A stretch of DNA of 64,000 nt, from the NCBI GenBank assembly GCA_019448385.1, contig JAGTXO010000008.1:806001-870000 (forward strand), read 5' to 3'. Positions 8,033-47,017 of this stretch are shown piece by piece. The stretch comes from Diacronema lutheri. Its lineage: Eukaryota > Haptophyta > Pavlovophyceae > Pavlovales > Pavlovaceae. Each line of letters begins with the position of its first letter. Positions within the stretch are counted from its first letter, which is position 1. The notes under the pieces are model-generated. The model was not told the DNA's origin. It saw only the letters and a program-made list of their open reading frames with translations, and searched no databases. Both the position numbers and the translations under genes were made by a program.

Positions 8033-8064
8033 CGTGGATCTGAGCCCCAGATTTGATTTGACCC

Positions 8065-8081: not shown

Positions 8082-8124
8082 CGCGAGCTGCGCGGCGGCT
8101 CGCGGCGGGCTCCAGAGACGGAGC

Positions 8125-16659: not shown

Positions 16660-16782
16660 CGGTCGACGGCCTCTCGTGTCGGGTGAGGCCCCGTCTCTTT
16701 TTCTTTCTCTTTTTTTTCAACATACAGTATAGATGGTCAAGCCAAATCCGATCAGGGGCACGATCGCGCCCCGAGTGCAGCG
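16660..16782. other. Spacer between host gene and element end
   Basis: It holds a pyrimidine-rich stretch (CTCTTTTTCTTTCTCTTTTT) and the relatively AT-rich ACATACAGTATAGATGGTC just before the element's terminal block. The element boundary probably lies near 16770-16783. No coding sign is seen. Confidence 0.5.
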
Positions 16783-17094
16783 CGGGCCGTTCGGAAGGAC
16801 GTCCTTGTGAGGGAGCTCTTCGCGTTTGGCGAGCGGGGGAGCACGACGCGCAGCGTTGCTGCGGCGGCGTGCGGGCGGCGAGCAGCGGTCGGGCTGCTCG
16901 CGACGAGGCCGGAGCAGACGGCGCCGTGGCCGCCGGCGCAGGTGACGCGCGCCGACGAGCCGTAGCGAGCGTCCGTGATCCGCACGGCGGTTGGAGCGGG
17001 CCGGCTGGTGCGGCGCGCTCGGCCACGGGTGGCGGCGTGCACGGTCGTGCCGCGCGCGGCACGCGTCGCCAGCCGCGCGCGACCTGGGCAGAGC
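16783..17094 (-). repeat. Terminal block of the giant element (copy B), downstream of the Fanzor gene
   Basis: Read on the minus strand, this block starts GCTCTGCCCAGGTCGCGCGC 38 bp after the Fanzor stop codon and runs to the outer tip GCGCTGCACTCGGGG. It matches 2934-3212 along its length, with an extra ~40 bp near 16860-16900. It is the 3' terminal repeat of the element. In Fanzor and TnpB systems the guide RNA is usually transcribed from the 3' end of the gene through the element's end, so this is the place to look for it. The RNA itself is not demonstrated by sequence alone. Confidence 0.6.
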
Positions 17095-17131
17095 CCGCAA
17101 AGCGTCGACCGCTGCGCGGCTCGGCCGTGCG

Positions 17132-19860
17132 TCAACGCCGGCCGCGCTTCGGCCCGCGCGCGCTGCCGCCGCCGGCACTGGCGCTGGCAGCTCCGCGGGC
17201 GGGGGTGCGGGCGCGAGAGCCGCCGCCGCCACCGCCGCCGCGCCCGCCGCCGTCGTCGCCACCGCCGTCGCCGCCGCCGCCTCCCCCGCCGTCATCGTCG
17301 TCGTCGCCGCCGCCGCCTCCGTCGCCGTCGCCGTCGCCGTCGCCCTCGCCGCCGCCGCCGTCGCCGCTGCCATCGTCGTCGTCGTCGTCGTCGCCCTCGT
17401 CGTCGCCCTCGTCGTCGCCGTCGCACTCGTCGTCGCAGTCGTCGCCCTCGCCGTGCACCATGCGCTCCTCACGCTCCCACACCTCGCCGCGCGCCCACCA
17501 GGCGAGCACGAGGGCAAAGCGCTCAGGCGTCGACGTGGTGTCGCGCCCGGCCGCGTGCGCCGCCATGTCGTGCACGTCGTAGAAGATGTTGCGCGCGGCG
17601 TTGTAGTCGCGGTGCACGGGCTTCTTGCCGCCGTTGCACGCCGGGCAGATGACGAGCGCGTGCACCGTGCGCGTGCCGCCCTTTGCCACGGGCAGGCGCG
17701 GGTTCTGCGCGAGCTCCGCGCCGCAGCGCTGCAGCCTGCCGCCCTTGGCGAGCCGCGGCATCGAGCAGTGCATCGACGTGTACGGCTCGGGCACGAAGAC
17801 GGCCGCGACGCCGCGCCGCCGCAGCTCGCGCAGCAGCCCCACCTGGAAGGCGGGCGGCGCGCCCTTGGGCTGCGCGCCCTTGTGGTCGCGCAGCCACTTG
17901 CCCACGCACACGAGCAGCCGGTCGCGCGTCACGCCGTCGACACAGTGCGCCGCGATGAGCGCCTCGGCGACGCGCGCCGCGTTGGACCGCCCGCCGCTGT
18001 CGCGCCGCCAGCGCTCCTTCCGGCGCGCCGGCGCGTCGTACACGTGCTCGGCGGCGCGCTCGCGCACCCGCGCGCTCTCGCGGTGGAAGGCGATGTATTT
18101 GCCCGCGTCGAGCACCTTGGCGCTGTGCGCCTCGCCAAGCCGCGCCTCGTCCGCCTCCACGCTGAACTCCTCGCCGCGCCCGTCGGTGCGCACGCGCCGC
18201 CGCGCCGCGTTGGTCTTGGCCGTCTCGCGCGCAAAGCCCGCGGCGCGCGCGCGCGCGCGCTGCGTGAACTGCCGCCAGACGGCCGCCCGCCCGACGTGCG
18301 CAGAGTAGGTGGTGATGTTGCCCATGTTCGGGTCGGCCGCGACGACGACCGCCGCCTCGACGTCGATCGCCCGCCGCAGCTCGGAGCCGAGCGCGACGGC
18401 GATGCGCCCGTCCGGCCGGCGCCAGCGGTGCAGGACGCCCGAGCCGCCGGCCGGCGCCTGCGCCTTCGGCACGAGGACGGTCCCGACGGCGTGCACGGCG
18501 ACGCCATCTGTCACCACCGACTTGACGGGCTGCCGGCCCGGGAGCGGCACGCGCGGCAGCGGCGCGAGGCCAACCCACGAGCGCCGCGCGTGCCACGGCA
18601 GATCGGCCGGCGGCCGCTCGCGCCCGGCGTAGTCGAAGACGCGGTTGGAGATGTCGAAGCGCGTCGCAAAGACCGCGTACCTGACGCGCACGTCCGACAT
18701 CGGCGGGGTGTTGCCGTTTGTGCCTGTCCACTTGATCGGCTCGCCATCGTGGTCGCGCAGGTCCAGCGCCTTGAGCCGCGCGCGCAGCTCCTTGCGCTCG
18801 TCATCCGAAAGCGTCACCCAGATGGCGCTCGCGGCGAGGCGCACGTTGCGCGGCACCTGCGCGCAGCGCGCGGCGCGCGAGCGCGCGGGCGCGTGACCAA
18901 CCTGGCCGCGGGGCGGCGCGCACGGCGGCGGCGCGCGCGCTTGGGCGCTCGGCGGCGGCAGCGGCAGCCACGCCTCGCGCGCACATTGTGCGTGCGCAGC
19001 GGCGCCACATTGTACCGCGGCGGCCGTCCGGTCAGCTGCGTGTGGATGTGCGCGAGCCGGCAGAGCAGCGCCTGCCCCTCGGCCACGTGCTGCAGGGTGC
19101 GGATCTGCACGAGGAAGTAGCGCGTCGTGTGCCGGTCGTAGTTCCACCTTTTCGTGGGCGTGCACTTGTAGTCGATCTTGTGGAGGACCATGTCGGGCAG
19201 GTGGCGGTCGAGCGCGGCGGGGCAGCCGACGCGCGCGCCCTCCACGTCGCCGCGCAGCAGCCGCTCGCACAGCTCGCGCACGCGCGCGTTTCGCTGCATC
19301 TCGGGCAGCGCGACGAGCGCCTCGTCGCGCTCGACTGCCGCGCGGACGACGTCGCGGAGCAGCCCGTTCACGACGCGCGATGGATGCATCAGGCACGCGG
19401 TGGACACCTGCGTCGCCTCCGCCTCGAGGATCTCCGTGAGGCCCACCGCGCAGACGGGCTGGACGCCCTCGGCCATCTCGCCGACGGCGCGCGCCGTCGC
19501 CGCCTTGGTCTGCGCGGCGGCTTGCTCGGCGGGCTTGCCTCGGGGCGCTGCACCGTACGTGCTCTCGTCCTTGTGCCAGCCGATGGCCGAGAAGATCGCA
19601 CGGACGGTTCCCTTGTCCATCGTGGTCGACGTGTGCACGCTGGTCGACGGGCCACCCGACGCCGCGCCGACGGCCTGCGCGCTCGCCACCGCAGCCTCGT
19701 CGCGCACCACCTTGTTGATGACGCGGTACGCCTGTGTCGTGAGCCTGTGCACGGCCGCCGCGATGCGCCGCAGCTCCTTCCGCGCACCGGGCTGCGCCGT
19801 CACCGCCTGCGGCCCCGCGTTGAGCGTCGAGCGCTTGACCACGAAGCCCGGGAGCACGCT
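17132..19860 (-). other. Fanzor (eukaryotic TnpB-like RuvC nuclease) module
   Basis: About 865 residues spanning the 128-bp intron. The N-terminal helical part reads RKELRRIAAAVHRLTTQAYR in exon 2. Across the splice, TGRPPRYNVAPLRTHN|VPRNVRLAASAIW is continuous. RuvC-I: VVVAADPNMGNITTYS (catalytic D near 18333). RuvC-II: VAAVFVPEPYTSMHCS (E near 17790), with YTS matching the family TS signature. A zinc-knuckle-like region has MHC, QRCG and VICPACNGG, spaced more widely than usual. RuvC-III: VHRDYNAARNIFYDV (D near 17607), the hallmark D-x-NAARNI. All three acidic residues are intact. After the nuclease come an Asp/Gly tail of ~100 residues and a basic end, GPKRGRR, a possible nuclear signal. 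Fanzors are RNA-guided DNA endonucleases; activity here is inferred. Confidence 0.85.
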
Positions 19861-22800
19861 GACGCGCGTGCGCGCCGTCGCGCCGCCGGCGGCGCGCGCG
19901 CTCGGCGCAGCGGGCTCGTCCACGCGCGCGCGCTCGACGCCGCGCGCGCGGGGAACGCTCGGCGCGCGCGCGCCCGCGGCGTCGCGCGCGCTCGCGGCGG
20001 CACCCGCCGCGGCGCGCTTGCCCGCGGCGCCCGACTCGCCGTGCGCGCGAAGCGGCGCCGACGCCAATGCCGACGCCGCGCCCGCGCCGCCGCTGCCGCT
20101 GCCCGATACGCCCGCGCGCCGCTTCTGCTCGTCGCGCGTCTTGCGGAACTGGGCGACGAGGTCGCTGCTCACGTTGGCCTCAGGCTCCCACGTGTCGGCG
20201 CTCTCGTCGTAGCCCCGCCACCTGATCCGGAACTGGAACGTCACCTTCTTGCCCGCCTTGCGGCGCTCGTCGACGACCGCCTCGACCTCGTACGTGCGCG
20301 CCTCCTCGTCGACGCTCGCGCCCGCCGCGCTCGCGCCCGTGTCCGGCCACCCAGCGACCGTGCCGCCCAGCCTCTCGGCGGCCGCGCGCAGCTGCCGCTC
20401 GCGCTGGGCGGCCGCGGCGCCTCGCGCGACCAGCGCGGGCAGCATGCCCGCGCCGCCCGCGAGGCCGTGCGCGCCGACGCTGGCGGTCATCAGCGCGTCG
20501 AGGCACGCGAACGTTGCGAGCGCACGCGCGCCATCGTCGCCGCCGCGCGGCTGCGAGCGCACGACGGGCGATGGCCGCGGCTCCCCCTCGGCCGCGAGCA
20601 GCGGCCAGATCGCACTGGCCAGCGCGACGGCATGCGCGCCGACCGCGACGGCCACGTCCGCGTCGAGCGGCGCAAAGTCGTAGCGCACGAGCGCGGCCGG
20701 GCGCGAGTCGTCCGTCGGCCGGTCGGCGACGAGCAGCCCGACCGGGCGCGGCGGCTCGCCGGACGGCGCGGCGACGGGCACGCAGAGGAGCACGACGAGC
20801 AGGCGCGGCGTGCCGCCGAGCAGCGCGCGCGCGGCATCCGCCCCGTCGGCTCCGCCGCGCGCGGCCGCGGCGAGCAGCTCGGCCGCGCGCGTCGGGCCCA
20901 GCGCCGTGCGCGCGTCCTTGCGCGCGCGTGCGCGGGCCGTGTACGCGGCGCAGGCGTCGTCGAGCACCGCCGCGCTGGGCGCGGTGCCAGTCGTCGCCCA
21001 CGCGCGCAGCGCGTCGCGCACCCGCGTGACGATCGCCTGGTCGACCGCCGCCTCGCCGGCAGCGTGCGCCGGCGCGCACGCCGGCGGTGCGGCGGCAGGC
21101 GCGAGCGCGGGCGCGCCGTCGGCGCCGTCAACGCCGACGGCGCCGTCGGCGCGCCGCCACGCGAGCTTCGCCTCGATCTGCTGCCGGACGGCGTGGCAGT
21201 GCCGGTCGATGCCGCGCGCGTCGTCGAGCGCGGCCAGCGCGTCCTCAGCGGCGGGACGGCCGCTCGCGTCCGCGACGGCCTGCAGGCAGAGCAGCGCGGC
21301 CGCACGCGCGTTGCACGCGCTCTGCGGCTCGGGCGCGAGCGCGAGCTCGAGCTCGAGCGGCGACGCGCCTCGCGCCGCGGCGATCGCGTCCATCAGCACG
21401 TCCAACCGCTGCACCAGCGCCCTGTGCGCGTCGCGCGGCGCGCCCGTCGACGGCGCGCGCGAGCGCGTCGCCAGGAGCCCGAGCGCGCGCGCCGGCGCGC
21501 CCGCCGGCGTGTGCAGCACGAGCAGCGCCGCGCCCGCCAAGCTCGCGTTGCGCGTGACGAGCGCGAAGATGCGCGTCGCCTCGTGCGCGCCCACCGACGC
21601 CCAGATCGCAGCGCGATCGGCGTCCGTCTGCGCGTCGCACAGGTCGCGCACGTCGTCCGGCGCGAGCAGCGCGCCGCCGCCGGCGGAGCGCGCGACGATC
21701 GCCCGCGCCTCCGCCACGAAGACGGCCTGCGGCAGGTCGGCGTGGCGCGCGTCGACGATGGCGCGCGTCGCGTGCACGCCGAGCTCCACGCCGCGGTAGA
21801 AGGCGCGCGCGTTGGCCGCGCGCGCGTGCGCCGGCCGTCCGTCCGCGTTGCGCCTCGCGCGCGCCTGCTTGCTCGTGCGCGCGAGGCCGTCGCGTGGCGG
21901 TGGCGGCAGCGTGGCGAGGAAGCGCGCGGCGGGCGGCGGCGCGCGCACGCCGCGCTGCCGCCGTGCGATGGCCGCGAGCCGCCGGCCCGCCGCGCTGCCG
22001 CCCGCGCCGACGTGCTGCCGGCGGCCGAGCGCCGCCGGTGGCGGCGGCGGCGGCGGCGCGGCGGCGGGCGGCGGCGCGACGGCGGGCGGCGGCGCGGCGG
22101 CGGGCGGCGGCGCGGCGGTGGGCGGCGGCGCGGCGGCGGGCGGCAGCGGCGGCGGCGCGGCGGCGACGGCAGCACCAGTCGGCTTGTCCGCCCACGCACC
22201 CGAGACGCTGTCCCAGGCCTTGCCCGGTGGCGCGCGCCCACGCGGCCGCGGGTGGCGGGCTCGAGCGGCGGGGGGCGGGCGGCCGGCGCGCCAGTCGAAG
22301 ACAGGTGCAACCGTGGCGGCAGGCGCCGAGTGCAGCGCGTCGGTCACAGAGCGCGTGGTGCGCGCGGCGACCGTGGCGCGCATGGCGGGCGGGCGGTGAG
22401 CAGCGCCCGCCGGCGCGCCGGCGGGCGCGGCAGCCGGCGCGCCGGCGGGCGCGGCCGCCTCGAGCCCGGCGGAGGCGCCGCGCTTGCGCTTGCGCGTGCC
22501 GCCGCGCGTGCGCCTGCGCGCGCGCCCGCCGCGCGCCCGTGCGGCCTGCGCGTCGCCAGCCGCGTCGCCGGCCGCGTCGCCGCGCCGCACGTAGACGATC
22601 GCGAACGCCTCCTCGCCGGTCCCGTCGACGCCGCCGCGCGCGCGGCGTAGGACCGACCGCCACTGCAGCCGCCGCGCGCGGCCGGGCTCGCACGCAAACC
22701 AGCGCCCACCGCGCCTGACGACGGCCACAAAGTCGTCGTCGCGCCGCCCGCGCCGGCGCGTGCGCAGCAGCACGCACTGCACGTCGAGCCAGCCCTCGTG

Positions 22801-25800
22801 CCAGTCGGCCGTGCTGGGGGCGACGCGAATCGACTGCGGGAGCTCGACGCCAAAGCCGGCGAGGCGCACGATGTGCGCGACGATGACGCTCGAAATGGCG
22901 GGGGCGCTCGACGGGTCGTCCGCTGCAGCGAGCACCGCCTCGCCCCAGTGCTCACGCGTGACGCAATCCGCGTCCTCGACGTGCACGTGCGCCACGCTCG
23001 CGCCGAGCTGGTGCAGCAACGCGCAGATGTCGGCGTCGACCGTCCTCTCCTCCTCGGCCGCCTCGGCCGTGCCGCGGGCGGCGGCGTCGCCCGCCGGCTG
23101 CCCGAGGTACGCGATCGCCCGCTCGACGGCCGCGCCCTCCGCACGCGCTACGCTGTCGATCGCCGCATTGCCGACGGGCGCGCGCAGCGCCGCGATCGCG
23201 TCTTGCAACGCCGTCGCGTCGCCCGTCGCCGCCGCCGCCGTCACCGCCGCCGCGCTCGCGGTGCCGTGCGCGACGGCGTGCAGCGCGGCGGCGCGCGCGG
23301 CGGGGATGCGCCCGTCCAGCGCGAGCACGAGCGGCGGCCCGGCCGGCGTCTGCTGCCGCCGGTGCCGCCGGCTCGCAGCCGGGTGGTCGGCGCGCGCGCG
23401 CTCGAGCCGCGCGCGCCGCTCGACGACGCGCGCCCAGAAGGCCTGCACCCTCGGCTGCGCGAATGCAAGCCAGCCGGCGCCGCGCGTCACGACGTGCACG
23501 ACGATCCGGTCCTCGTGCCTGAGGTACTGCACGTAGAGCGCTTTGCTCACGCCGAGGACGTGCATGCCGAGCTGCAGCTGATCGCGGTGCGGCTGCGGCG
23601 GCCCGTCCTCGTGCGCCGTGGCGCCCGCCTTGGTGAGCGTCTTCACCTCGACGAGGACCTGCTCGTTGTTTTCGGGGAGGATGGCGAGCCCGTCCGGCGA
23701 GAAGGCGAACGGCGCGCTCTTGTCGTGCGGGTCCGCACGCACCATCGGCAGGTTGCACACGACGGTGATGCCGTACGCGGCCGCCAGCTTGCGCAGCGCG
23801 ACGGCCTCGCCGAGGATGCCCGCGGTCGTCGCCTTGGTCCGCACCTCGCGCCGCCGCCGGTGCACGTACTCGTCGGTGAGCGTCTCGTGCGCGACGCCGG
23901 CGTTGTCGTTCACGACGTCGCCAACCTTGCTGCCCGTGACCTCCTCCCATCGCTCGTCGTGCCAGCGCGGGCTGCGCTGCGCGGGCGCGCCCGCGCCGAC
24001 GGCGTCGAGCACGCGGCGCAGCGCTGTGCCGTCGGGCGCAGCAGGCACGCGCGCGCGGTCCTGGGCCTCGCGAGCGTCGAGGACGCAGCCCGTAGTGGAA
24101 TGTTGGGGTAGGTCGAGCTTGCTCGCCTCGCCGTAGCGGCTCTCCAGCTGGCGCGGTGCGTCGGCAGGGCCGCCGTCCGTGCGCGCACCCGACGCGCCCG
24201 CCAGTGCACGGGGCGCAGCGTCCGAGGCGCCCGCCGCGCCCGCGCCGCCGCCAATCGCGCCAGCGCACGCGCGCGCCGCGACCTGCGGACGGCCAGCCGC
24301 AGGGACCTCGTCCGCTCGGCCGGCCGCTGCGTCGGCCGTCCGCTTGGCCACCTCGCGCACGTCTCCGAGCGCGAGCGTGGCTGGCGCCGTCCAGCTCCCG
24401 TTGCGTTTGTCCCAAAATTTGAGCAGCCCGCCAAGGAAGGGCGTGCCCGTCGGGCGGTCCTCGGGCACCTCCGCCAGGATCGCGTCGACGCGCAGCGCGG
24501 CCGCCACATCGCAGAACGCGCGCGCGGCGCGCGCCATCCGCTCGGCGCGCGCGCCGCCGTCGTCCGCCGCGCGGCGGATGGCGTGGCTCACGTGCGCGAC
24601 GCGGAGCGAGACGACGGCGTGCGCCGGCGCGTCGGCGCCCGTGCCGAGCGTGTGCCGCCGGATGGCCAGCTGCCCATCGCCCATGCGCGGCGGCAGCGAC
24701 GCGCACGCCGCGACGGTCGTCGTGCCGGCCGCGCTGTCGCACAGCCAGCTCGCCTCGCCGCCGCCCGCAAACTCAAAGGTCGCGAAGCCCTCGCGGCCGA
24801 AAAGCGCGACGAAGTGGTCGAGCACCGCCTTGTTGATCGCGCGCGCCGCCGGCCGCGTCGATGCGCCGCGGGCAGCGCCACCCGCCGCGCCGCGCGCATC
24901 GCTGCACGTCGCAGGGCAGGTGCAGCCGGACGCGCGCACGCCGTCCGACCGCGTCCGCGGCAGCTCGAGCTCGCGCACCTTGGGGCAGAACCAGAGCGGG
25001 TTGGACGCCTCGAGGCACAGCACGACGAGCCGCCCGTCCGTGCCGGCCAGCGCGCGCGCGTCGCGCAGCAGCTCGACGGCGAGCTCGGACGTCGCCGCGT
25101 GCACCGCCGGCTCGCCCGTCGCGCGGTCGGGCGGGAAGAGGCCGCCGCCGACGAGCGGGCTGGGGCAGCGGCCGAGCATTACGAGCAGCGGCGGCGGCGG
25201 CGTCTGCGGCGCCTGCTGCCCGACCGCAGCCGCCGTCAGCCCGGCCAGGTCGGAGCTCGTGCGGAGGGCCTTGAGCGCGACGCGCGAGCCGGTGCCCGCC
25301 TGCTCGGAAAACGTGGCGAGCATGGCGCACGTGCTCGCCCTCGCGCCGCACTGCCAGCTGACGCGCGCGAGGAGGCCTTCCAGCGTGTCGTTTTCGCGCG
25401 GCCGCGTGACCGCGTCGAGCGCCGCCGGGCCGAGCTGGAGGCTGCCGGGCGTGACGCACAGCACCGCCTCGTGGTAGGCGCGCAGCAGCTCCCTCGGCAG
25501 CTGCTCGGCGGGCGTCGCCGCCTGCTCGCCCACCCACCGTACACCGTGGCCGCCGTCGCCCGCGCCCGCGAGCCGGACCGCCGGCCCGCCCGTGATCGCC
25601 GAGGTCGGTGGCGTGCCGAGCGCGTCGACGAGCGCGCGCACGGGCGCGACACGCCTGCGCGCAGCGTCCGCGCCGACGGCGAGCGCGGCGATCTGAGCGC
25701 CCTCCCATGCGCGCTCCCTCGCGTCGTCCCGCGCGGCCGCCGGCGCGGCGCCCGGCCGCGCGCCGGGCGGCACCGCGCACGCCGCCGCGACGACCTCCGC

Positions 25801-27673
25801 GCGCGCGCCGGCGGCGTCGGGCGCGTGCAGCTGCGCGAGCGCGCCAAAGAGCGCGGCGGCCGAGCGGTAGCGGCCGTGCGCCGCGACGAGCGCGTAGAGC
25901 ACGCGCAGCGCGGCCACGCCCGCCTGGTCGGGCGCGTCGCCAGCGATGCGCCCGACCTCCCACGTGCGCGTGGGCGGCGGGCTGCCGTCGGCCGGGTCCG
26001 GACGCAGCGCCCACGCGCGCTCGACGATCGCGTTGAACACGTCGCGCGCGGCGCCCTCGTCAAACTCGGCGGCGCCCGCCGCGTGCGCGCACCACCCGTG
26101 CACGCGCGACGTGGGCGCATCCACGGCGCGCTGCACGACGAGCACCGCCGGCCGGTCGACGCAGCCGAGGCTCACCGCCGCGTGCTTGCCCTCGAGCAGC
26201 GCCGCCGCCGCAGCCTCGACCAAGGCGTCACCAGGCGCGTCGCCGACGACGACGGCACAGCCGTCGCCGTACTCGGCCTGCATCGCGGCGACGCACGACG
26301 CGACAAAGTCGCCGCCCGCGGCCGCCGCGTGTCGCGCCGCCAGCATCCGGCGCGCGATGGCAAGCCAGACGTACTCGGCCGGCGCGCGCGCGGCGCGCGC
26401 GCGAGGCGCGCCGGCCGCGCCGCGTGCGCCAGCGCGTGCGCCTCCAGCGGCCGCAACGGCCGAGGCGGCTGGAGCGGCGGTGAGCGTGCGCCGCGCGCGC
26501 TTCGCCGGCCGCGCGATGGGCGATGCACCCGCCGTCGCACCGCCCGCAGCAGCCGGTGCGGCCGCCACAGCGCCCGCCGCGACGCCACTCGTCACGACGC
26601 CCGTGGCGGGCGGCGCGGCGTCGGACGCGGCCGCCTCGACGGGCGTCGCGCAACTACCGCCAGCGGTCGCGGACGCGCCCGGCGACGCGTCGGCGAGGAG
26701 GTGGCGCAGCACGCCGCGCGCGAGCGCGACTCGCACGGCGAGCGTCAGCGCGCGCAGGCGGTCGGAAGGCGAGGCGTCGCGCTCGGCGTCGGCGGACGTG
26801 GCGGCAGCAGGCGGGGCGGCGGGCGGCGCGGCGGCGGACTGGGCGGCCGCCGGCGCAACCTCGTCGGCCTTGGCCAGCCAGACGAGCCCGGCGACTGCGA
26901 GCACGACGCTGTACGCGCCGACATCGTCACCCGCAACGCGCGCCAGCCGGGCGTGGGCGTCGGCCTCGGACACGGCGACGCGGAAGAGCACGTCGTCGCG
27001 GGCAGCTTGCTCGGCAAACTGACGCAGCTGCTTGGCCATCGTCACGCCGGCGACGCACGCCTCGCCCGCCTCTGCCTCGACCTGCTCGTCCTGGCCGATG
27101 GCGGACGCGCCGGCCTCGGCGCCAGCGTCGAGTGTCCGGCGGCGCTCGAGGGCGAAGCCACGCACACAGACGCTCTGGAGGCCGCCGAGCGCGCCCGCCT
27201 TCTCGTGCAGCGCGCACGACAGCTCGACCACCGAGTCCACGCGCGTCGCGGCGGCGCCCCCCCGCTCGCCGCGCGTGGGCGCGCGCACGACGAACACCGT
27301 GAATTGCGCGCGCTTCGCCGCGCGCGCCGACGCGCACGCGTGCTTCAGGAGCCGGCAAAGCGCGGGCCTTTGCGCCGCTGCGCCCCGCGTGCACAGCAGC
27401 AGTTGGCCGCGCTCGTCGCCCAGCTCCTGCTCGATGGCGGCCTCGAGCGCGTCGTCCGTCAAATCGCCGTGCTCCGTCGAGGCGAGCGCGCGCGCAGCCG
27501 CGAGCGCCAGCTCGCCTGCGCCCGCGCGCCGCCGGCGGCGCGCACCGGCGGGCGCGTGCGGCGCCGACGCGTGTGACGACGCCGCCGCGTCCGCGCGCGC
27601 ACACGCGGCGCGCAACGCCTCACGCGCCGAGGCGGCCGCGCGCGCCCTGGGCGCGAGCCTCAAGAACGTGCGC

Positions 27674-27757
<84 letters not shown>

Positions 27758-30700
27758 TCGCCCGCGTCGCCGGCCGGCGGCGGCGGTGGCGGCGGTGACG
27801 GCGCGGCCACGGCGGCGGCAGCAGCGGCGGCGGCGGCGGTGGCGGCGGCGGCGGCGCCCAGCGCGGGCGGCGGCGGCGTGGCGGCGGCGGTGGCGGCGGC
27901 GGTGACGCCAGCGGCGGCCTTGGCGACGCGCGTCTGCGGCGGCGCTTCGGCGCGATCGGGGCTGCCCCCGCCACGCACCGCGCTCGTGCCCGCGCAGACG
28001 CCGCCCGGCGCACGATCGCTGGCCGCGCCGGTCAGCGCGACGCGGAGGCGCTCGCCGACAGCGTACATGTCCGCCACGCTGAACGTGCGCGGCGCGGACG
28101 AGCAGCCCGCCGCGGCGAGCGCGTCGTTGAGCGCGCCCACTATCGCGAGGCCGCACGTCGCGCCACGCTGCGCCGCCTCGTCGAGCAGCCGCGCGCGGCG
28201 CACGCGCGAAATGTCGAGACCCGCCGCGTGCAGCGTGGCAGTTATCGCCGTGGCGAGCACGAGCGCCCGCCTGCAGGGCGACGCGAGCGTGTCGACGAGC
28301 ACCGCGTCGTAGCGACGCTCGCCCGCGCGCGCGACGCGCACAAGGCGCAACGCGGTGAAATGGCCGGAGGCGAGCTGCGCGCCGTCGTCACCGCCCGCGC
28401 CGCCGCGCTCGTCCGACGGGCTCCACACGCCGATGACAGCCTGCGTCGTCGCCTCGCTGCGCAGGCGGTGCAGCAGCGCGGCGCGCTCGGCGCCGTCCTG
28501 GAACACCGCGGGTTGCGCGGCGAGCGGCACGTGGCAGACATGCCCGCCGCCGGCCTGCCCGTGCACGCGTAGCACGACCTCGCAGCACGCGTCGACGGTT
28601 GAGGCGAGCATGTCGCCGCTGGCGATGCGCTCCACCTCTGCCTGCGGGAGGCCGGCGCTCGCGGCGGCGGAGGCCAGCCGGCGCGCAGCCGCGTCGCCCG
28701 CCCACGCAAGCAGCGCCGAGTTGGCGGGTTGGAGGGGAAGCTCAAGGGCGGCTGGTTCGGTGGCGGTAGCCTCGTTGGCAACGGGCACGTTGGCGGTGCG
28801 CACGTTGGCGGCGGGCGCGGCGGCGATGGCTGGTGGGGCGGAGGACACGCCCGCGGCGGCAGGCGCGGACGCGACAGCGGCAGCGGCTAGCGGGGCGGGG
28901 AAAACGCCGTCGGTGGCTGGCGCGGAGGCGAGTGCAGGAGCAACTAGTGGGGCGGGAAAATCGGCGGCAGGCGCGAAGGCGGATGCAGCAGCGGCTAGTG
29001 CGGCGGGGAAAACACCGTCGGCGGCAGGCGCGAAGGCGGATGCAGGAGCGCCCAGCGGGGCGCAGAAAACACCGTCGGCGGCAGGCGCGAAGGCGACAGC
29101 AGCAGTGGCCAGTGGAGCGGAGGCGCAGGGCCACGCGCGCGCCAGCCGTGCAAGCCCAAGCCGCGCGCGAGCGACGCACGCGCCGATGGCCGAGGCGGCG
29201 GCGCAGGCCACGACGTGGCCTGGCACCGGTGTGGCCAGCCGCTCGCGGGTGTGCACGTCGAGCCGCGCCCCACGCCAAGAGCGGCGGCGCGCTGAACGGA
29301 GGCGCGCGACCCCGATCGATCCGCCCGCGCACGCGCGCGCCGGCTCAGTGTGGCCAACGCGCGCCGCTATGCAAGGCGCGCGCGCGATAACGGCGGCTGT
29401 CGGCCGTGGCGTGCGCGTGGCGGCGCCGCGGCGACGGGCGCGGCACACGAGCCGCTCGGGCGCGCCGCCGCCGCGCGGCACGATGTCGAGCAGCACGGTC
29501 ACGCCGCGCGCGCGCGCGACCGCCGTGCACGCGAGCCGCACGGGCAGCGGCGGCCCGTCCGGGCGCGCGAGCGCCGCCACCTCGGCGTCGGTGAGGCTGT
29601 GCAGCTCGCGGCGCGCGCGCGCGAACGCGGCGATGTCCGCGCGCAGATCCGCGTCCGTGCCGAGCGCGGCACGCGCGTGCACGGGGAGCGACGCGCGCAG
29701 CGCGTGGAGCACGCCGCCGCGCGCGCCGCGCGGCGCCGGCGCGCGCTCGCGCTCAGCGCGCGCGGCGCGCGTGAGCTCGCGCACCGCGCGCGCGAGATTG
29801 CGCCGCGCGGCCGCGACGGGAGGGCTAGGTGCGCGCGCGCGCCGGTTGTAGCGCGGCCGCGCCGAGTCGAGGGGCGGCGGACGCGGTGCGTACGCCGCGG
29901 CGCGGCCCGCGCGCCAAAAGGCCGGCGGCGGGCGCAGCTCCGTCGCGTCGACCGCGGCCGCGAGCGCGCCGAGCGCGGCGTCGCTGTCGCCCGCCGCGTC
30001 GGCCGCGTCGACGAGCACGAAGAGCGCGCCGAGCGCGCGCGACGCGGCCGCCTGCGCGGCGGTGGGGCGGGCGCAGGCAGCGACGCATGCGGCCGCCATG
30101 CCGCGCGCCGCGGCGAACGCCGGTGACGTGACGGCCGCGCCGATGGCAACGGCGGCGGCGGCGACGGTCGAGGCGGCAGCGCCGGCGATGGAGGTGGCAG
30201 CGGCGGCGGCGCTTGCCATCGCGCGGCGCGCGAGACGCGAGGCGCCACCGACCGCCGCCGCCGCAGCGCGCGCTGCGCGCGCGCCGGTGGCGCGCATCGT
30301 CGCCGCGCCAGGCGCCGCCGCGCCGACGCCGCCGGCGCCCGCGCCGTCGCCGCTCTCGGCCGTGCAGGGCTCCGATGGCGAACCCGGCGTGCGCTGGCGC
30401 GTGATGCGCGCGCCGAGGCGCGCGCTCCGCGCCGCGCGGCCGGCGACGTCGAGGAAGCGCCGTGCGCGCGCCGCGCGCAGGCCACGCGCGCGCGGCGGCG
30501 CACCGACAGGCGCCGAGCGCCGCGGCGCGCACGCCGGCGCGTCGCTGTCGGGTTGCGCAGCGCGCGCGCGGGAACTCGGCGCGGCGTGTGCGGGCGGCGG
30601 GCGCGCGCCCGCGCGGCGCAGAGGCGCGAGGCGCCGGCCGCAGACGAGGCGTGTGCGCAACCAGGACGGCGAGGGCCGCAGGGCGCCGTCGACGTCGCGC

Positions 30701-33700
30701 ATCGGCGGGCCGCGAGCCCGCCGCGCAGCCGTGCGGCGCGCGCGAGGCGCTCGGCGGCGCGCGCGCCGCACGGCGCGCGCGGCGGCGCGCACGCCAGCGA
30801 CGGCTGCGGCCACGCCGCGCGCCAACACGGCCGCGGCGTGCGCCATCGCACCGAGCACGGCGCGTGGCGCGCCGAGCAAGCGCAGCAAGCGCGACGCCGT
30901 CGCGCGCGCCGGCGCACCGTGTGCAGGGGCCTCGCCAGCGCCAGCACCGACGCCGCCATCGCCGCAGCCGCAGGTGGCGTCGCCGCCGCCGCAGGCGTCG
31001 CGACGGACGCCGCCGCCGCCGAAACAATCGCCGCACACGTCGCCGCCGACGTTGCCACCCCAGCCGCCGTTGCGTGCGCAGGTGGCTGCGGCGCGTGCGT
31101 GCGGGAGGCGTGCCGTGCGGCGCGCATCACACGGGCTGCGCGACGCGAGCGACGCCGCCGGGGTCCCCGCTGCGCCAGGCGCGCCGTGCGCGCCAGCCTC
31201 GCCGGCCTCGCCGGCGCGCGGTCGCGCGCTCGCCTCGACGTGGCCGCCTCCGCCGCCATCGCCGCCGTCGAACCGGGCGGCGGAGGGCTGCCGCTCGAAC
31301 CGCTCGTCGGCGTCGGCCGCCACCGCCGCCTCGCGCTCCGCCGCCGCGGCGGCCGCACGGCGCGCGTGGCGGAGCGCGCGGCCGCCGTCCGCTGCGCGGC
31401 GTGGCGGCGCGGGCGCCGCCTTCGGCGCGCGCGGCCCCTCGGCGCGCTCGCGGAGCACGGCGAGCGGCGTGCCCGTGGCGACGCTCGTGCAGACGCGCCG
31501 CAAGGCGGCGCTTACGCACGCGTGGACGACGCGCGCCGTCCGCTTGTCGGCGGCGCGCGCGGCGCGGCGCGCGGCCTTGGCGGCGGCCTTTTTGGCGCGC
31601 CTCCGCTCCGCCTGCTCCGACAGCGCGCGCGCCTGGCGCTCGGCTGCGAGCGCGTCCTCGGGCGAAACGGTCGGCCTCGGCGGCCGCGCGCGCGCGCTGC
31701 GACGCTGCGCGCTGCGGCGGTCGGACGGCGGCTGCCGCGGCGGCGAGGACGGCGGGCGCGAGCTCGGCGTGGGCGACCAATCGCCGCTGACGGTTGCGAG
31801 CGGCGCAAACGGGTTGTCGTCCCCGCGCCCCGCGGCGTGCGACAGTGCACGCGGCGTCGGGCGCCGGCCGACCGCTGGCGGGCCCCACTCGGACGGCGGC
31901 TCCGAGGGCGAGCGCGCCGTCGGCGCCGCGCGTTGCGCGGCCGGCGGCGCCTCCCGGTCCAGCGCCGCCTGCTCTCTCGCCGCGGCCTGCTCGTCACCCT
32001 CCGGCACGCCACGCGGCGCGAGCACCGCGGTGGCGCAGCGCGTCGCGTTGAGCAACGCCGCCTCCATCTGCCGCACGCTGGCCTTGGCGCACGCCACACC
32101 CTGTCTCGCCCGGCGCAGCGCCTCGTGCGCGCGGCGCACTTCCGCGTCGGCATCTTCGCGCATGCCAAAGTGCGCCTGTTGCAGCCGCAGGTCCGCAGGG
32201 CGCCCCTGCGCGCGAGGGGCACGGGCGCGGCGGCGCGCAGGTGACGGAGCTGGCGCGCCGTTCTGCGCTGCGCGCACGCCAATCGACGGGCGCGCGCGCG
32301 GCGGGGCGCGCGCGCGCGCGCGCGCGCGCGCTGCCTACCCAGCCGCCGGCCGGCTCGCGCGAGCGCGCCAGCTGCTCCGCCGCCTCGGCGTCGAGCACGC
32401 GCTGCTGCGCCTCCTCCTCGCCCAGTGCAGCGAGGTGCAGCCGGCGGGCTGCCTTGCGGCAGTTGCCCTCCGCCTTGCCCACGGCCTTGCGCGCCGCGTC
32501 GACGGGGTCGTCGTTGGCTCTGGCGCGCCTGCGCTTGCCCTTGTCGGCGGGCGGCGGCTCGGCGCGCTGCAGCGTGCCGAGCGCGTCGTCGGCTCCGCGC
32601 GCGGCCGCCCGCGGGCGGCGGGCCCCAAAAAGCGCACCGGTCGCCGTGCGCGCCGCGCAAGCAACGACCAGCGCTGACATGCCGGCGAAGACCGCACCGC
32701 CCAGCGCCACGGTTGCCACGATGCGCAGCGTCCCGTGCGCAAGCTGCGCTGCCTCCGCCGCTTTGGCGGCCTCGCGCGCGCGCGCATCGGCGGCTCTCAT
32801 CTCGTGCAGCAGCCCGGCCGCGCCGCTCGCGCCGTCGCGGCCGCGCGCGAGCTCGCACAGCACCGCCGCCGCGCGCCGCGTGGGCTCGCGCGCGAGCAGC
32901 TGCGCGCCGCCGTCGGGGCGCAGCTTCTCAACGAACTCGACAAACGTCGCGTCGCGCCAGAGGGACATGCGGAAGGCCCTGTGCACCGCCCCCTCCTGCT
33001 CGCGCATCCGCCGTGCCGCCCGCCTGCCGTCGCGCGCGTGCGCGTGCGCGGCCGCGTCGACTCCCGCGACGCCGCGCTGCGCGTCGCGCGCGGCCGACGA
33101 CGGCGCCGCCGCGCTGCCCGCCAAGGGCGCCGCAGCGGCGACGCGCGCGTGCGGAGCGACGGGATCGCCGGCGGCCGGCGGCTCGGCGCGCTGCGGCGTG
33201 CCGTTTGCTCCGCGCGCGGCCGTCCCGGGGGAGGTGGCCGCGATGGCGCCGCCAGCCGCGCCGCGCGCCAGCCACGCGCATAGGCTGCCGACGAGCTCGC
33301 CGAGACCCCCGACGGTCGCCGCGGCGGCGAGTGCGCCGGGCTTGCCGGCCGACAGCGGCTCGCGAGCGTCGTCGTCGCAGCCGCCGGCACCCGTCTTGGC
33401 GAGTGCGTCGCGCTCGCCCTCGACGCCCGCCACGACCGCCGCCCCTCCGTCGTCCGCCGCGCCGGCCGCGCGCGCGGCCGGGCGCAGAGGAGGCGTGCCG
33501 GTGCAGCCGTCGCCGCTCGTCTTCGCCGTTTCCTCCACTTTGGTCACTTCGTCGCCACCTGCGCCATCTCCGACGCCGGGGCCCTTGGTCACGCTTGCCG
33601 CCATGCGCGCCGTGCCCGCCGGCCAGCCCGCCGACTGCTCGAGCGCGGCGGCGAGCGGCGCGACGCGCGTCGACTCGGGCGCGCTCTCGTCATCGGGCTC

Positions 33701-36013
33701 GAGCGCGTTGTGCAGGCGCGCGAGCGCGCGCTCGACGGCCGCGGCGCCACTGCCGGGGGCGCGGCTCGCCGCGCGCACCGCGCGCCGCCAGGCCGGCGCG
33801 AACATGAGCGCCGGCTCGAGCGCCGCGAGCGCGCGCGCCTCGCGCGCGTCGCTCGCGCCGAGGCGCGGCGGCACGCGCGCGGCTCCGCGCGGCGCGGTGC
33901 CTCGGAAGCGTGGGCTCAGCGTGTAGGCGAGGTGCTGCGGCACGCCGCGCGCCTCCGCGCGCGCGCGTCCGTCCTCGACCTCGCGCCGCGCCTTCGCGAT
34001 CGCCGGCGTGGCGCGCGCGAGCCAGTCGGGGTCGGCGGGCAGGTGGATCACGACGAGAATCGGCGCCCAGTCCAGCCGCGGGTTCTTGTGACGGTCGGGC
34101 ACGACCCACACGAGCAGCACCGTGCCCTCCGCGCCGCACGCCGCCTCGTAGATCCTGGGCTGCGAGCGCCAATCGGGCCTGACGCGCAGCGCCCGCGCGT
34201 GGTCGATGGCGGCGGCGCGGTCGCCATTGAAGTGAACCGTCGTCACCTCGCCGATGACGGACCGGCCGGACCGCCAGCAGAACACCGCGTCCGCCGACCC
34301 GCCGGCGATGGCCGCGAGCGATTCGGGCGCGGCGAGCCGCGGCAAGCCCTCGAAGGCGGCAAAGTCCTCGTGCGCATTGTACACGCCGCCCCAGCCGTCG
34401 TGCGCGTACGCGCGCGCGGCCGCTCGTACCGCGCGCGGCTGGTTCTCCACGCCCGACGTCATGTGCCATGTCGTCCCCGCGAAGCCGGGCTCGCCCAGCT
34501 CGGCCCGCACGACGGTACCGTACCCCGCGCCCTGCGTCGGGGCGGCGAGGTGGTGCATGCCCGCGCCGGTCACGCCCTCCGTGCGCTGCCGCGTGACGAT
34601 CGTGCCCGTCGCGTGCGCGAAAAGCGTGTCGACCACGGCGGGCGCGCGCCCGCTGTTCGCCCGTGGCCGCGCCCTGCCCGCTTTTAGCTGCTCGGGGTCC
34701 TTGGCGTCGTACACGCGCGCGTCCGCGTCGCCCTCATCAGGCGCAGTGTAGACGCAGCGGCGTTCGAGCGGCGCCGAGCCACCGCCGTCCGCCGCCGCCG
34801 GCGAGGTTGGCGCCGCGCCCGCCGCCACCGCGCTCGTCGCCGCCGTGCCCGTCGCCACCGCCGCAGCCGCCGCGCCCGCGGGGTCGTCGTCCCCGTCCTC
34901 CGCGCCCTCCCCGTCGTCAGCGGTGGTGGCGTCGCCATCGTCCCCGTCGCCCTCGCCCCCGCCGAGGCTGCTGAATGGTCGGGGCCCCCACGCCGAGGCG
35001 GCGCGCCGCTGCGGCGCACGCGGCGGTGGCGCTCGCGACGGCGGCCTTGGCGCCGCCGCGCCGCGCGGCCTGGCCGCCGTCGACAGCGCGCGGCCTGCAG
35101 CGCCCGTGAGCGCGTCGAGCGCGGCCGTGCGTGCGATGCGGTCGTCGGGCGCGCGCAGCGCCGCCTCGACGGCCTGCAGCAGCCCGTCGGGCGCGGATCC
35201 GCCGACACTGGCATCGCACGCCTCGGCGAGCCGCGCGGCCTCGGCGAGCCGCGCGGCCTCGCGGGTGAACGGGCCGAAGCGCCTGGCGCGGTCGCCGAGC
35301 AGAGCGCCGATGGCGGCGCGGAGCGTGCGCGCGCGGGTCTCCTCGTACGCGGCCGTCGTGAGGCGCGCGAGGCGCGCGTCCAAAGCCTTCTTGATGTCGA
35401 CAAGGACACTCGCGCGGCGGCCGTAGAGCGTCGATGCGCTCGCCACGACCTCGGCCGCGACTGTTGCCGCGGCGAAGCAACACGCGGCCCCACTCTGCGG
35501 GGGCGTCTTGAAGGCATCGATGGGCGGCGCTGTTCTGCCGATGCGCTGCGCAAGCTTCTTGATGAGCACGCCGGCCGCCGTGGCGTACGCCGATTCGCCG
35601 TTGCCCAAGGTGCGCGAATCGGCGAGCAGGGCGAGCGCGGCGCCGGGCGGCGCGCCGCGCTGCGCGGGCGGCGCGAGGAGCAGGTACGCCGCCGTCCAGT
35701 GCACGAGGCCGCTGGACGCGCGGAGGCAGAGCGGTAGCACGACCACGAGCACCTGCCCAAACCGGTCCGCATCCGCGCATGCTTTGCGCAGGTTGCGCAG
35801 CGCCACCTTGAGCGCATGCTGCGAGCACCCCGTGTCGCCCACCCTAACCCTGCTCGTGCCGAAATCCGCGTAACGCAGCAGGGCGATGAGGCAAGTGGAT
35901 GGGACCACGTGGGGGTGGGTATCTCCCGGCGACAGAATGGTGCTGAGGGCCAGCGAGAAACTGTCCGAGCCGCCCCGCCCGCCGGGCAAAGCGTCCTTCA
36001 CGGAGTCCTCCAT
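17132..36013 (-). CDS. Giant mobile-element polyprotein: 2x Ulp1-like, YqaJ, chromodomain, Fanzor
   Basis: Three exons on the minus strand: 36013-32339, 32205-18985 and 18856-17132, 6,207 codons including the stop. The introns (133 bp GTAGGC...GCGCAG; 128 bp GTGCGC...GCGCAG) are both phase 0 and match the host intron style. Domains by residue: Ulp1/C48-like ~100-180; predicted membrane helix ~1095-1120 (RIVATVALGGAVFAGMSALV); second Ulp1-like ~2505-2575; YqaJ nuclease ~3970-4140; chromodomain ~5190-5260; Fanzor ~5340-6206. Linkers are Ala/Arg-rich with poly-Ala and tandem repeats. The ATG at 36013 follows CTGCAG and an upstream in-frame TGA, so an earlier exon is possible. A polyprotein cut by its own peptidases is an attractive reading; several separate transcripts are the alternative. 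Open-frame length alone proves nothing at this GC; the ordered motifs do. Confidence 0.65.
18857..18984 (-). other. Intron joining the chromodomain-side exon to the Fanzor exon
   Basis: Minus-strand GTGCGCGCGAGGCG ... GCGCTGCGCGCAG, 128 bp. Without it the Fanzor protein would lack its N-terminus, because the two frames differ. Both flanking codons are complete (phase 0). Its donor hexamer is identical to most host introns in this window. Confidence 0.75.
20105..20320 (-). other. Chromodomain just upstream of the Fanzor module
   Basis: The frame reads TYEVEAVVDERRKAGKKV, then FQFRIRWRGYDESADTWEPE, then SSDLVAQFRK. This is the chromodomain fold with its aromatic cage residues: Y in TYEVE, W in RWRGY, and W in TWEPE. 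Chromodomains bind methylated histone H3 lysines; in chromoviral retrotransposons they guide insertion to heterochromatin. Here one sits about 80 residues before the Fanzor module in the same frame and exon. Confidence 0.85.
21890..22350 (-). other. Pro/Ala linker with tandem repeats
   Basis: The giant protein here has repeated APPPAAAPP units (plus-strand GGCGGGCGGCGGCGCG repeats at 22060-22150) followed by RRQHVGAGGSAAGRRLA. It separates the YqaJ part from the segment shared with the decayed copy at 1215-2930. No domain was recognised. Confidence 0.5.
23465..23970 (-). other. YqaJ-type PD-(D/E)XK nuclease domain
   Basis: The segment opens with QRSPRWHDERWEEVTGSKVG. It continues TKATTAGILGEAVALRKLA (conserved E), APFAFSPDGLAILPENN (catalytic D), VLVEVKTLTKAG (catalytic E-x-K), and HRDQLQLGMHVLGVSKALY, where the Gln helix contacts DNA. 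This is the order and spacing of the YqaJ/lambda-exonuclease-like recombinase family, found in phages, large DNA viruses and some eukaryotic transposons. All catalytic residues are present. It could prepare DNA ends for insertion or recombination of the element (inference). Confidence 0.8.
27665..27760. repeat. (GCG)n tract encoding about 29 alanines
   Basis: About 29 consecutive GCG/CGG triplets (27675-27757) are read as alanine on the minus strand in the giant gene. More broken GCG runs continue to ~27,900 and encode Pro/Gly/Ala linkers. It is a likely hotspot for length change. Confidence 0.9.
28140..28370 (-). other. Second Ulp1-like cysteine peptidase domain
   Basis: The residues GHFTALRLVRV (H), then RRYDAVLVDTLASP (D), then LLDEAAQRGATCGLAIVGAL follow the H...D...Q-x-G-x-x-C order of C48 (Ulp1/SENP) peptidases. 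The spacing of QRGATCG is exactly that signature. The domain is short and divergent, and the remaining fold cannot be judged by eye. C48-like peptidases recur in large eukaryotic DNA transposons. Confidence 0.6.
28830..29110. repeat. Five ~57-bp tandem repeats in the giant gene
   Basis: Units such as GTCGGCGGCAGGCGCGAAGG repeat with small changes, encoding variants of FAPAADGVFPAPLxAAA on the minus strand. The copies differ by in-frame indels, so the reading frame is kept, which argues for translation through this region. Confidence 0.8.
32206..32338 (-). other. First intron of the giant gene
   Basis: Minus-strand GTAGGCAGCGCGCGCG ... CTCGCGCGCAG, 133 bp, rich in a (GC)n run at 32291-32330. 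It joins REPAGGW to GRPADLRLQQAHFGM, moving from the first to the second long frame (phase 0). The evidence is the frame change and splice dinucleotides only. Confidence 0.6.
35470..35710 (-). other. N-terminal Ulp1/C48-like peptidase domain
   Basis: Residues ~104-176 of the giant protein: LVHWTAAYLLLAPP (H), ALALLADSRTLGN (D), PPQSGAACCFAAA (Q-x-G-x-x-C). This is the catalytic order and exact end-signature spacing of the Ulp1 family. It begins only ~100 residues from the predicted start, typical for a separate protease module. Activity and substrate are unknown. Confidence 0.6.
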
Positions 36014-37279
36014 CTGCAGACTGTGGGCACGTCAGTGTCCGGATGGCGGCCCGGATGATACTTGGGAGAATTTACATGATGCCCTGGAGAATGCCCCGCT
36101 CTCCCACAACCAGGACCCGCCAGCGCGCCGAGCCTACTCGTTTGCCCGCGCCGCCTCTCTTTGCGCGCCCGAGCGCGGCCTCCGAGCGCGGCCAACGTCC
36201 TCCGGGGGCGTGCATCGTGGCTGCTCGCATGGGCTGCGACGCGGCGAAAGCTCGCTGCGCGGCCGCAACGTGAGCGCGCGCGCGCGGCCGCGCGCCGGCC
36301 TGCGCTGCTCTGCACGGCCGCGCGCCGGCCTGCGCAGCCTCGTCGCGCAGCGTGAGCGCGAGCGCGCGCGAGGTGAGCTCGGCGGATGGGTGCGCGGCGG
36401 CGTTGGCGGCGGGTGCGGCGGCAGGCTGGGCGGCGGGTTTGGACGGAGAGTGTCGGGGAAGAACGGGGCGCATCCTGGCTGGGAGTTGGACGGCGCCCAC
36501 CACGCGCTGGCGGATCCTGGTTGCCACCACCCCCCCCCCCCCCCCCCCCCGGAGACGAGGACCAGGGGCATGGCCGACTCGCTGCGCCGCACAGCGCGCG
36601 GCGCGCGGCATGCTGCGCGACCTCAAGCACATCCAGCCGCGCTCCGCCCACGCAACGCGCGCAATGCCGCGTTGCACTGCAGGTGTGCACGTGCGGCTCT
36701 CACGCGCACTGTGTTGCACGAACGGCATCACGCCACCGAGCTGCGTCCGGACCACGCGCCGCGCGCAGGCGACCACACAGGGGCGCGCCGCGCCGCGCGT
36801 GCGCGCCCTCGCAACCGTTGCAGCACGCTCTGCCTTGCACTGCGCCGAGCCGCCGCGCGCTGTGCGCGTGCATGCAGGGCGCACGCGTGCGACGAAGCGC
36901 GCGCGCGGCGAGGCGCGCGGGCGGCTCGCTGCGCGGGCGGCAACGCGCCCAGCTGCGCCCAGGCCAGGCGCGCGCCCGCGAGTGCCACCGGGACGCACTG
37001 CCCCCGCCGGGGTCGCCGCGCGCTCTGTGTGTGCGCTCGCGCGCTGCGAGCGCGGCGGAACGTTCGTGCATGGCGCGAAGAGCGCGGCACCCGAAGACGG
37101 CTGCCCCGAGCCCGCGCCGGGTGGCAGCGAGCGGCGGCACCTCCTCGGCGAGCCCGCCCCGCGCCTTCCCCTCCACGTGGCGTTTTGAGGCAGACGGACA
37201 CGCGCCCACACTGCGACTGGGCACGCTGCTCGAGGCAGACACGCACCCAACGCGCGCGCACCACGCGCCCGCGTCGGCG
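36014..37279. other. Upstream region of the giant gene; no gene seen
   Basis: GC-rich sequence with a 21-base poly-C tract at 36530-36550 and a tandem duplication of GCACGGCCGCGCGCCGGCCT near 36280-36345. Both strands are open over long stretches, but the predicted products are Arg/Ala/Pro-rich without motifs. The 5' end of the element should lie here or further right; no copy of the terminal block was found. Confidence 0.5.
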
Positions 37280-37918
37280 GGCCGGTGTGAACGAGCGAGA
37301 GCTCGGTGTCGCCAACGGGGGCACGGGCGCGACTTCGGTCCGCCTCTCGACGGACGCAGGCGACGCTGCCGGGAACTTCCCCGACGCCTGCACATCCAGG
37401 GCTTCGAGGTACAGAGCTGGGCAACAGTGCCGCTCGTCACCGATGAGGCGGCCAAGCTCGCTATCCTTGCTGCCCTCGGCTCCACCAAACAGCCGGGCGA
37501 CCCAACGGTTCGTGATCGCCTGGCCGCCAGGTGCGAACCGCGCCCGTGCAAGCGCTTCACCCGCATTCTCCGCCCCGCTGCGGACGTCCGCCTGCCGGCC
37601 GCGAACACGGCCGGTGCGCGTTGCCGCCTGGCCCAACACGAAAACCCGCCCGCCCCCGAGGCCGCAGGTCCTACCTGCCCAAGCGCAGCCCAACGGCACG
37701 CAGACAGCCCGCCTTGGCAACCGACTCGTGCGCGAGCGCTCCGCCCTCCACAAGAGCCTGCCCCACGCCACCGCCGACGCGGAGCCAGCGCAGCCGACGC
37801 CCCTCCGCGACGCTCGCGCCGCAAGGCGCAAGGGCCCCGGCGAGACGGCGTCAACCAAGCCCGCCGCTGGCACAGCGCCGGCACCCGGAGCCCACCCCAA
37901 GCCCCCGCGCACGCCTCG

Positions 37919-37949
<31 letters not shown>

Positions 37950-44293: not shown

Positions 44294-44298
44294 GGTCG

Positions 44299-44769: not shown

Positions 44770-44880
44770 GGCGCGCACGACGTCGCCCAGCCAGAGCAGC
44801 CCGGGGCGGGGCGAGTCCGGCTGCGCGGAGGTCCGGCTCGAGCGGGCGGGCGCCATGCTCTGAGGCGCCGCCGCTTTCTA

Positions 44881-46984: not shown

Positions 46985-47017
<33 letters not shown>

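Follow-up and report, generated by a model that had tools for sequence, protein, structure and literature searches.

The window (the whole stretch analysed, 64,000 nucleotides of the marine haptophyte alga Diacronema lutheri; C71:806001-870000) carries on its minus strand a 31.0-kb element, the main gene of which joins a YqaJ nuclease domain, a chromodomain and a Fanzor in one reading frame. The genome containing the window comprises 43,492,796 bases (43.49 Mb) in 103 contigs. The published assembly of D. lutheri NIVA-4/92 comprises 43,502,671 bp in 103 contigs, with 73.25% GC (PMC8379373). The same publication puts repeats at 22.9% of the assembly and names the classes long terminal repeat (LTR) and long interspersed nuclear element (LINE); its annotation pipeline included RNA-seq, and its main text contains no word beginning with "transpos" (PMC8379373).

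The giant reading frame and its domains

Three long open frames overlap on the minus strand (31994-36031, 18814-32334 and 17132-20179). Removal of two GT-AG introns, both of phase 0, gave exons 36013-32339, 32175-18985 and 18856-17132 and a product of 6,196 residues (1,225 + 4,397 + 574), encoded from 36013 to 17132 (Table 1). The middle frame, with 4,506 codons from stop to stop, is far beyond chance (log10 P ~ -18 for openness of one frame at this base composition). The GC content by codon position agreed with the frame in nearly all 600-base blocks (that at 26300 was tied and that at 28700 disagreed), and this signal changed frame near both proposed introns.

The annotated D. lutheri protein KFE25_006464 joins ...APLRTHN to VPRNV... 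(RTHN/VPRNV), which is the predicted junction at intron 2; it is 94% identical over 14% of Fanzor. Intron 1 is inferred from the frame and the codon signal. A previous sequence-only reading of this locus had proposed a frame of about 6,200 residues on one strand, merged from three frames by two phase-0 GT-AG introns. The frame was upheld by the nearly continuous codon signal, and the merging by the frames, the switch in codon signal and the junction in KFE25_006464; for intron 1 the proposal stays at the level of the frame and codon signal.

KFE25_006464 (P0005) starts with a Fanzor fragment and continues into SAM domains, which may reflect fusion with a host gene or an artefact of the gene model. 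Near-identical Fanzor and helicase-gene proteins were present on two public contigs, P0004 (2,435 bp) and P0009 (3,697 bp). With the Fanzor protein as query, two of 8,000 scored candidates were close matches; with residues 2250-4500 of P0002, none of 1,350 scored candidates was a relative at E<=0.001.

Profile searches supported three domains of the product. The chromodomain scored 45.6 bits with Pfam Chromo (cut-off 25.1), and its nearest PDB chains were CDYL, CDY and HP1. Fanzor scored 27.3 bits with Cas12f1-like_TNB, slightly above the cut-off of 26.3. The Fanzor/TnpB motif is D-X(125,275)-[TS][TS]XX-C4 zinc finger-X(5,50)-RD (PMC3627910). The product carries D5797, TS5982 (gap 184), Cys 5986/6000/6026/6029 and, after 8 residues, RD6038; the first Cys pair is widely spaced. 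The YqaJ segment of the window copy was below the Pfam cut-off (0.032), and that of a sister copy was above it; the window's segment matched a PHROG RecE-like exonuclease family. A PDB sequence search with this segment gave chance-level chains only.

The order His, Asp, Gln, Cys, which we take to be the Ulp1 motif, was seen by eye twice, at residues ~100-180 and ~2495-2567. Pfam C48 gave no match in the whole frames (E<=5) or in ten cut pieces (E<=10). PDB sequence searches gave either nothing or three weak unrelated chains. The single-sequence AlphaFold2 model of the first candidate was of low confidence (mean predicted local distance difference test score, pLDDT, 56.6), with no fold support from structure comparison. 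The two Ulp1-like domains are therefore candidates by motif, and a real Ulp1-like fold is possible; the self-processing suggested in the sequence-only reading stays conjectural. The sequence-only reading had named four families here. Fanzor and Chromo were found over their cut-offs, and YqaJ was found with PHROG and, in the sister copy, with Pfam, but the Ulp1-like (Peptidase_C48) calls received no Pfam match. A multidomain frame joining YqaJ, chromodomain and Fanzor is supported.

Could these be separate genes, with independent starts for YqaJ, for chromodomain-Fanzor and for the N-terminal parts? Internal Met codons are present, and a diverged copy (subfamily B, below) has an unrelated N-terminal part. 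On the other hand, YqaJ, the chromodomain and the N-terminal half of Fanzor all fall within an uninterrupted exon of 13.2 kb, along which the codon signal is nearly continuous. The spliced frame has no Met between residues 5136 and 5411, so that no ATG start lies just before Fanzor. We consider separate genes unlikely.

Table 1. Features of the element, in window coordinates
Feature	Position	Strand	Remarks
Whole element, 31.0 kb	16727..47736	-	5' end 47736 (CTATATAC GGCGCGG...), 3' end 16727 (...GACCATCTATAC); sharp identity loss between copies
Exon 1 (1,225 aa)	32339..36013	-	candidate Ulp1-like domain in first 200 residues, motif only
Intron 1, GT-AG, phase 0	32176..32338	-	frame and GC3 switch only
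Exon 2 (4,397 aa)	18985..32175	-	single open frame: candidate Ulp1-like domain 2, YqaJ, chromodomain, first half of Fanzor
Candidate Ulp1-like domain 2	28024..28713	-	ordered His, Asp, Gln, Cys by eye; motif retained in diverged copy
YqaJ / RecE-like exonuclease domain	23451..23979	-	phrog_434 4.1e-12; Pfam, sister copy, 5.9e-5
Chromodomain	20107..20310	-	Pfam 6.7e-12; PDB 3.2e-10
Fanzor (exon 2 end, intron 2, exon 3), then acidic Asp/Gly-rich tail	17132..19869	-	Cas12f1-like_TNB 4e-6; D-184aa-TS-xx-C4-8aa-RD
Intron 2, GT-AG, phase 0, within Fanzor	18856..18984	-	junction shared with annotated KFE25_006464
Non-coding 3' region, ~405 bp	16727..17131	-	expected place of Fanzor guide RNA; position only
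USP/UCH-type ubiquitin peptidase frame	39375..40868	-	PF00443 4.3e-8, over cut-off; both boxes in one frame
Gene: N-terminal domain + PIF1-like helicase	41964..44293	-	PF05970 1.8e-24, PF21530 6.2e-13; helicase motifs in three different frames
Nested ~870-bp palindrome near 5' end, CCCTACA repeats	44851..45737	.	inverted arms 207, 174 and 104 nt, 95-97% complementary

Termini and copies of the element

At least 93 places in the genome matched Fanzor by similarity; this is a lower bound, as 93 of 423 candidates were scored. All scored ones were 99-100% identical, and a further copy lies in locus L068. For comparison of the flanks, the best-scoring 30 of the 93 places were fetched, L020 being the window itself. 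At the 3' end, 28 of the 29 other loci were near-identical to the window as far as a single point beyond Fanzor, where 27 of them diverged and one (L011) met its contig end. L008 differs internally, yet has the same terminal sequence. At the 5' end, L035 and L037 matched through to ~47736 of the window, L033 matched until its contig ended, and L032, a shorter copy, has the same end. These shared sharp ends delimit an element of 31.0 kb.

The ends were counted by exact patterns, the reversed patterns giving 0 matches each as controls. There were 219 3' ends by a 24-base pattern (193 with CTATAC added) and 190 5' ends by a 28-base pattern (143 when the pattern was preceded by CTATATA[C/G] and its tail was shortened slightly). 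Pairing of same-orientation neighbours among the first ~100 listed places of each end gave 64 complete copies. Twenty-nine of these were 30.5-31.6 kb long, 14 were 21.4-22.2 kb, eight were 26.0-26.9 kb, eight were 29.1-29.4 kb and five had other sizes. The 64 copies, with a mean of 27.7 kb, total 1.78 Mb or 4.1% of the genome; by extrapolation, the whole family at 190 copies would occupy 5.3 Mb, or 12%. One locus (L036) contained a stretch without a match to the window, and the 5' end of that copy precedes it, which makes it a ~21.6-kb copy.

Fanzor exon 3 showed one synonymous variant across the 30 best-scoring copies, window included. This and the near-identity of the Fanzor places suggested recent spread or strong homogenisation.

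The sequence-only reading had drawn the element at 17-36 kb. The frame there is real, but it is only the main gene of a larger element with more genes and defined termini. The proposal of a mobile element that encodes Fanzor, a recombination nuclease and a chromodomain of its own in a single huge frame agrees with the sharp ends, the copies and the profile matches. The search for other copies in the genome found about 200, in several size classes.

The copy on contig C5, of 21.6 kb, represents subfamily B. Its identity to the window is 99-100% over the first 2.3 kb, drops to 74-97% in the central part and is again 99% between ~27.7 kb and 26.7 kb, where the fetched stretch ends; the Fanzor stretch searched is 100% identical. 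A divergent middle flanked by identical ends points to exchange between copies. The first part of the polyprotein is replaced by unrelated sequence with the frame kept, and the indels in the polyprotein frame sum to multiples of three in the stretch fetched. In the diverged part, about 46 of 334 synonymous and 62 of 821 non-synonymous sites differed (P 0.002). The ratio of non-synonymous to synonymous change (dN/dS) was 0.54 over 654 codons, and 0.47 and 0.59 in two 200-codon blocks starting at the second Ulp1-like candidate. The synonymous excess supports a selected coding frame.

The contigs chosen for an end pattern near their start showed a further regularity. Seven of eight (C1, C5, C6, C10, C12, C26 and C29; L076, L078-L083) begin at most about 12 bases from the element's 3' terminus, and C2 does not. 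C32, the only such contig from the listed places, has its start 8 bases ahead of the 5' end pattern. Such starts are probably assembly breaks at a long repeat, which we consider more likely than telomere-like placement, though breaks do not account for the predominance of 3' ends.

Other genes of the element and its neighbours

Upstream of the giant gene lies a gene for an N-terminal domain fused to a PIF1-like helicase. With its motifs in three different frames, the helicase looks broken. No indels separated the window copy from two other copies covering this region, and in subfamily B the frames switch similarly; the helicase has therefore probably been dead for some time. Beyond near-identical and N-terminal relatives, this gene matched one protein only, which comes from Quercus lobata and carries Pfam PIF1 (59% over 14% of the query).

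The N-terminal domain (43518-44293) carries a PPCVVDW signature. It has four free-standing relatives on public contigs (P0010-P0013), of 246-252 residues and 53-73% identical. Of five members, one had a single weak Pfam match; the PDB gave two chance-level matches, and the AlphaFold2 model reached a pLDDT of 44. The idea that it is a single-stranded DNA-binding protein was dropped.

In the USP frame, we take 40113-40157 to be the Cys box and 39486-39530 the His box. The palindrome near the 5' end, with its (CCCTACA)n-like stretches, is a possible origin or promoter. Short open frames with protein-like stretches lie at 45.7-47.7 kb on the plus strand, opposite to the other genes, and gave no Pfam match. 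Beyond the 3' end of the element, the host genes are ordinary: a short-chain dehydrogenase (14796-15848), a JmjC protein (9630-11564) and an RsmB/F-type methyltransferase (6977-8449).

A length of 31 kb together with a recombination nuclease, peptidases and Fanzor would also suit an endogenised virus-like element, and large DNA viruses carry Fanzor (PMC3627910). However, the Pfam scans of the element, which took in 23 frames in total, gave no capsid, polymerase or packaging match. No relatives were found by three pattern-based scans of viral contigs or by a phage search. A viral origin appears highly improbable.

Insertion, mobility and relation to known elements

Of the 5' ends at distinct fetched sites, 22 of 25 had CTATATA[C/G]; of the 3' ends, 27 of 29 had CTATAC. 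CTATA is common to both ends, and at either end it may be element or target sequence. No terminal inverted repeats, a mark of DDE-type elements, were found beyond chance between the first 100 and the last 130 bases. Six paired flanks showed no clear further target duplication. The ends fit site-specific recombination at a short core or insertion of the single-stranded DNA type next to a target motif, but duplication of a CTATA target may also account for them.

Other repeats stand some tens of bases or less from several insertions (L012, L019, L044, L057, L063, L067, L073; L070-L075). One flank repeat is a high-copy unit of ~90 bp ending GCGCCGTTAGTAT. A tRNA or snRNA target, suspected from this unit, was set aside, as none was found by ARAGORN on 55 loci or at the Rfam gathering cut-offs on 18 loci.

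The shared CTATA without an inverted repeat or a clear further duplication would suit a Crypton-like element. A tyrosine recombinase would then insert a circular form by recombination between its CTATA core and targets resembling CTATA. Cryptons are described as having short terminal direct repeats (PMC3627910). Against this, neither Pfam nor the motif screen gave a credible tyrosine recombinase, and about a quarter of the 5' ends depart from CTATATA[C/G] (143 vs 190). Such an origin is doubtful.

A giant relative of Helitrons is equally doubtful. It would move by rolling circle with Rep/helicase supplied in trans, and the broken PIF1 would be the relic of its own helicase. The sole outside match of the PIF1 gene was the Quercus lobata PIF1 protein, and palindromic stretches were seen by eye near both ends. 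Fanzor1 occurs in Helitrons, which are listed among the elements without inverted repeats (PMC3627910). On the other hand, the Rep/HUH scan with Pfam gave no match in 20 frames, the motif screen gave no credible HUH motif, and the flanks are not of the A/T or T/T type. For Helitron2-type asymmetric terminal inverted repeats, the best 10-nt match was 9/10, and 453 of 500 controls did as well or better. Helitron2 termini were therefore rejected.

The sharp shared termini, the many full-length copies, the copy number, the reading frame with its YqaJ, chromodomain and Fanzor domains, and the USP frame were observed directly. We interpreted the element, with reasonable though limited assurance, as a young and very successful giant DNA transposon of D. 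lutheri, of 31.0 kb and in about 190-220 copies, with one large intact gene for a ~6,200-residue protein. It would transpose as DNA and insert, without inverted repeats, at CTATA-like sites; the enzyme would be a recombinase or one of the single-stranded DNA type, unrecognised here or supplied in trans. Fanzor, with a guide RNA from the element's 3' end extending into the flank, would cut the re-formed empty or the unoccupied site. The RecE-like nuclease would resect the break, and gap repair would be biased to restoring, keeping or spreading the element. The chromodomain may tether the complex to methylated histone tails.

The guide in this scheme is modelled on SpuFz1. The guide RNA of that Fanzor is situated downstream of it and extends 14-15 nt into variable sequence, the target-adjacent motif is CATA, and CA stands just outside the left end (PMC10432273). 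On our reading, the SpuFz1 motif would derive from the left junction. On this logic, the motif of the present element should be CTATA, and the 3' flank of each copy its guide.

Several results weigh against the giant-transposon interpretation. No transposase, recombinase, Rep or DDE enzyme was recognised by Pfam and motif in the frames scanned, a negative that leaves room for an intron-split or trans-acting Rep and for a divergent or trans-acting tyrosine recombinase. The copies compared have a broken helicase. A search with six flank pairs, each joined, revealed no empty site (40 of 624 candidates scored), so that a CTATA target duplication and a core site were not distinguished. One of the six pairs (C39) has a similar stretch of ~24 bases on each side at unequal distances, which was taken as a local repeat. 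In a sister copy (L001), dN/dS was 0.89 over 1,126 codons (P 0.87), indistinguishable from neutral. Finally, folding of 16729-17131 was no better than that of shuffles (z -0.7).

It is also conceivable, but distinctly improbable, that the polyprotein itself is the mobility machine, combining RNA-guided cutting by Fanzor, RecE-type resection, strand annealing and chromodomain targeting with no conventional transposase. This would explain the open frame despite the dead helicase, and the alike ends of the copies. If true, the element would be of a new kind, a eukaryotic element propagated by RNA-guided recombination.

Compared with known systems, the giant transposon shares the core motif with the Fanzor1-bearing eukaryotic transposons (Bao and Jurka 2013, PMC3627910; Saito et al. 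2023, PMC10432273). Like them, it has Fanzor close to its 3' end, with a short non-coding stretch separating the stop from the terminus, and Fanzor is described there as captured by different transposon types. In contrast, Fanzor is here the C-terminal part of a ~6,200-residue frame with YqaJ and a chromodomain, no transposase was recognised, and the element measures 31 kb against about 2 to 9 kb for the Fanzor1 elements with a stated size (PMC3627910, PMC10432273).

The Fanzor-bearing Helitron2 elements of Chlamydomonas (CRe-1,2,3; PMC3627910) are alike in the algal host, Fanzor, the lack of terminal inverted repeats of the DDE kind and the hairpin-capable ends. They differ in that no Rep and no asymmetric terminal repeats were found here and the helicase is broken. 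Full-length copies are many here, whereas the CRe copies are described as often 5'-truncated (PMC3627910). RecE/YqaJ exonucleases of phages and large viruses have the same domain signature, which here lies inside a eukaryotic transposon polyprotein. The chromodomain LTR retroelements likewise have a chromodomain in the transposon polyprotein (PMC6338049), but no reverse transcriptase or integrase match was present here in the frames scanned.

Fanzors in transposons (PMC3627910) and chromodomains in retroelement polyproteins (PMC6338049) are thus already known. In the literature searched, from which subscription papers were mostly absent, we found no published element that joins Fanzor, YqaJ and a chromodomain, or one this large. 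This accords with the view in the sequence-only reading that no element with such a set had been described.

A 31-kb DNA transposon at such a copy number without a recognised transposase is unusual in itself. Why eukaryotic transposons keep Fanzor is an open question, and in this element a recombination nuclease and a reader of histone marks share one frame with it. A young family of ~200 copies, estimated at 12% of a compact genome, offers many natural pairs of guide and target in its 3' flanks, with CTATA as the predicted motif. Both lend themselves to direct tests, and the host alga is grown in culture.

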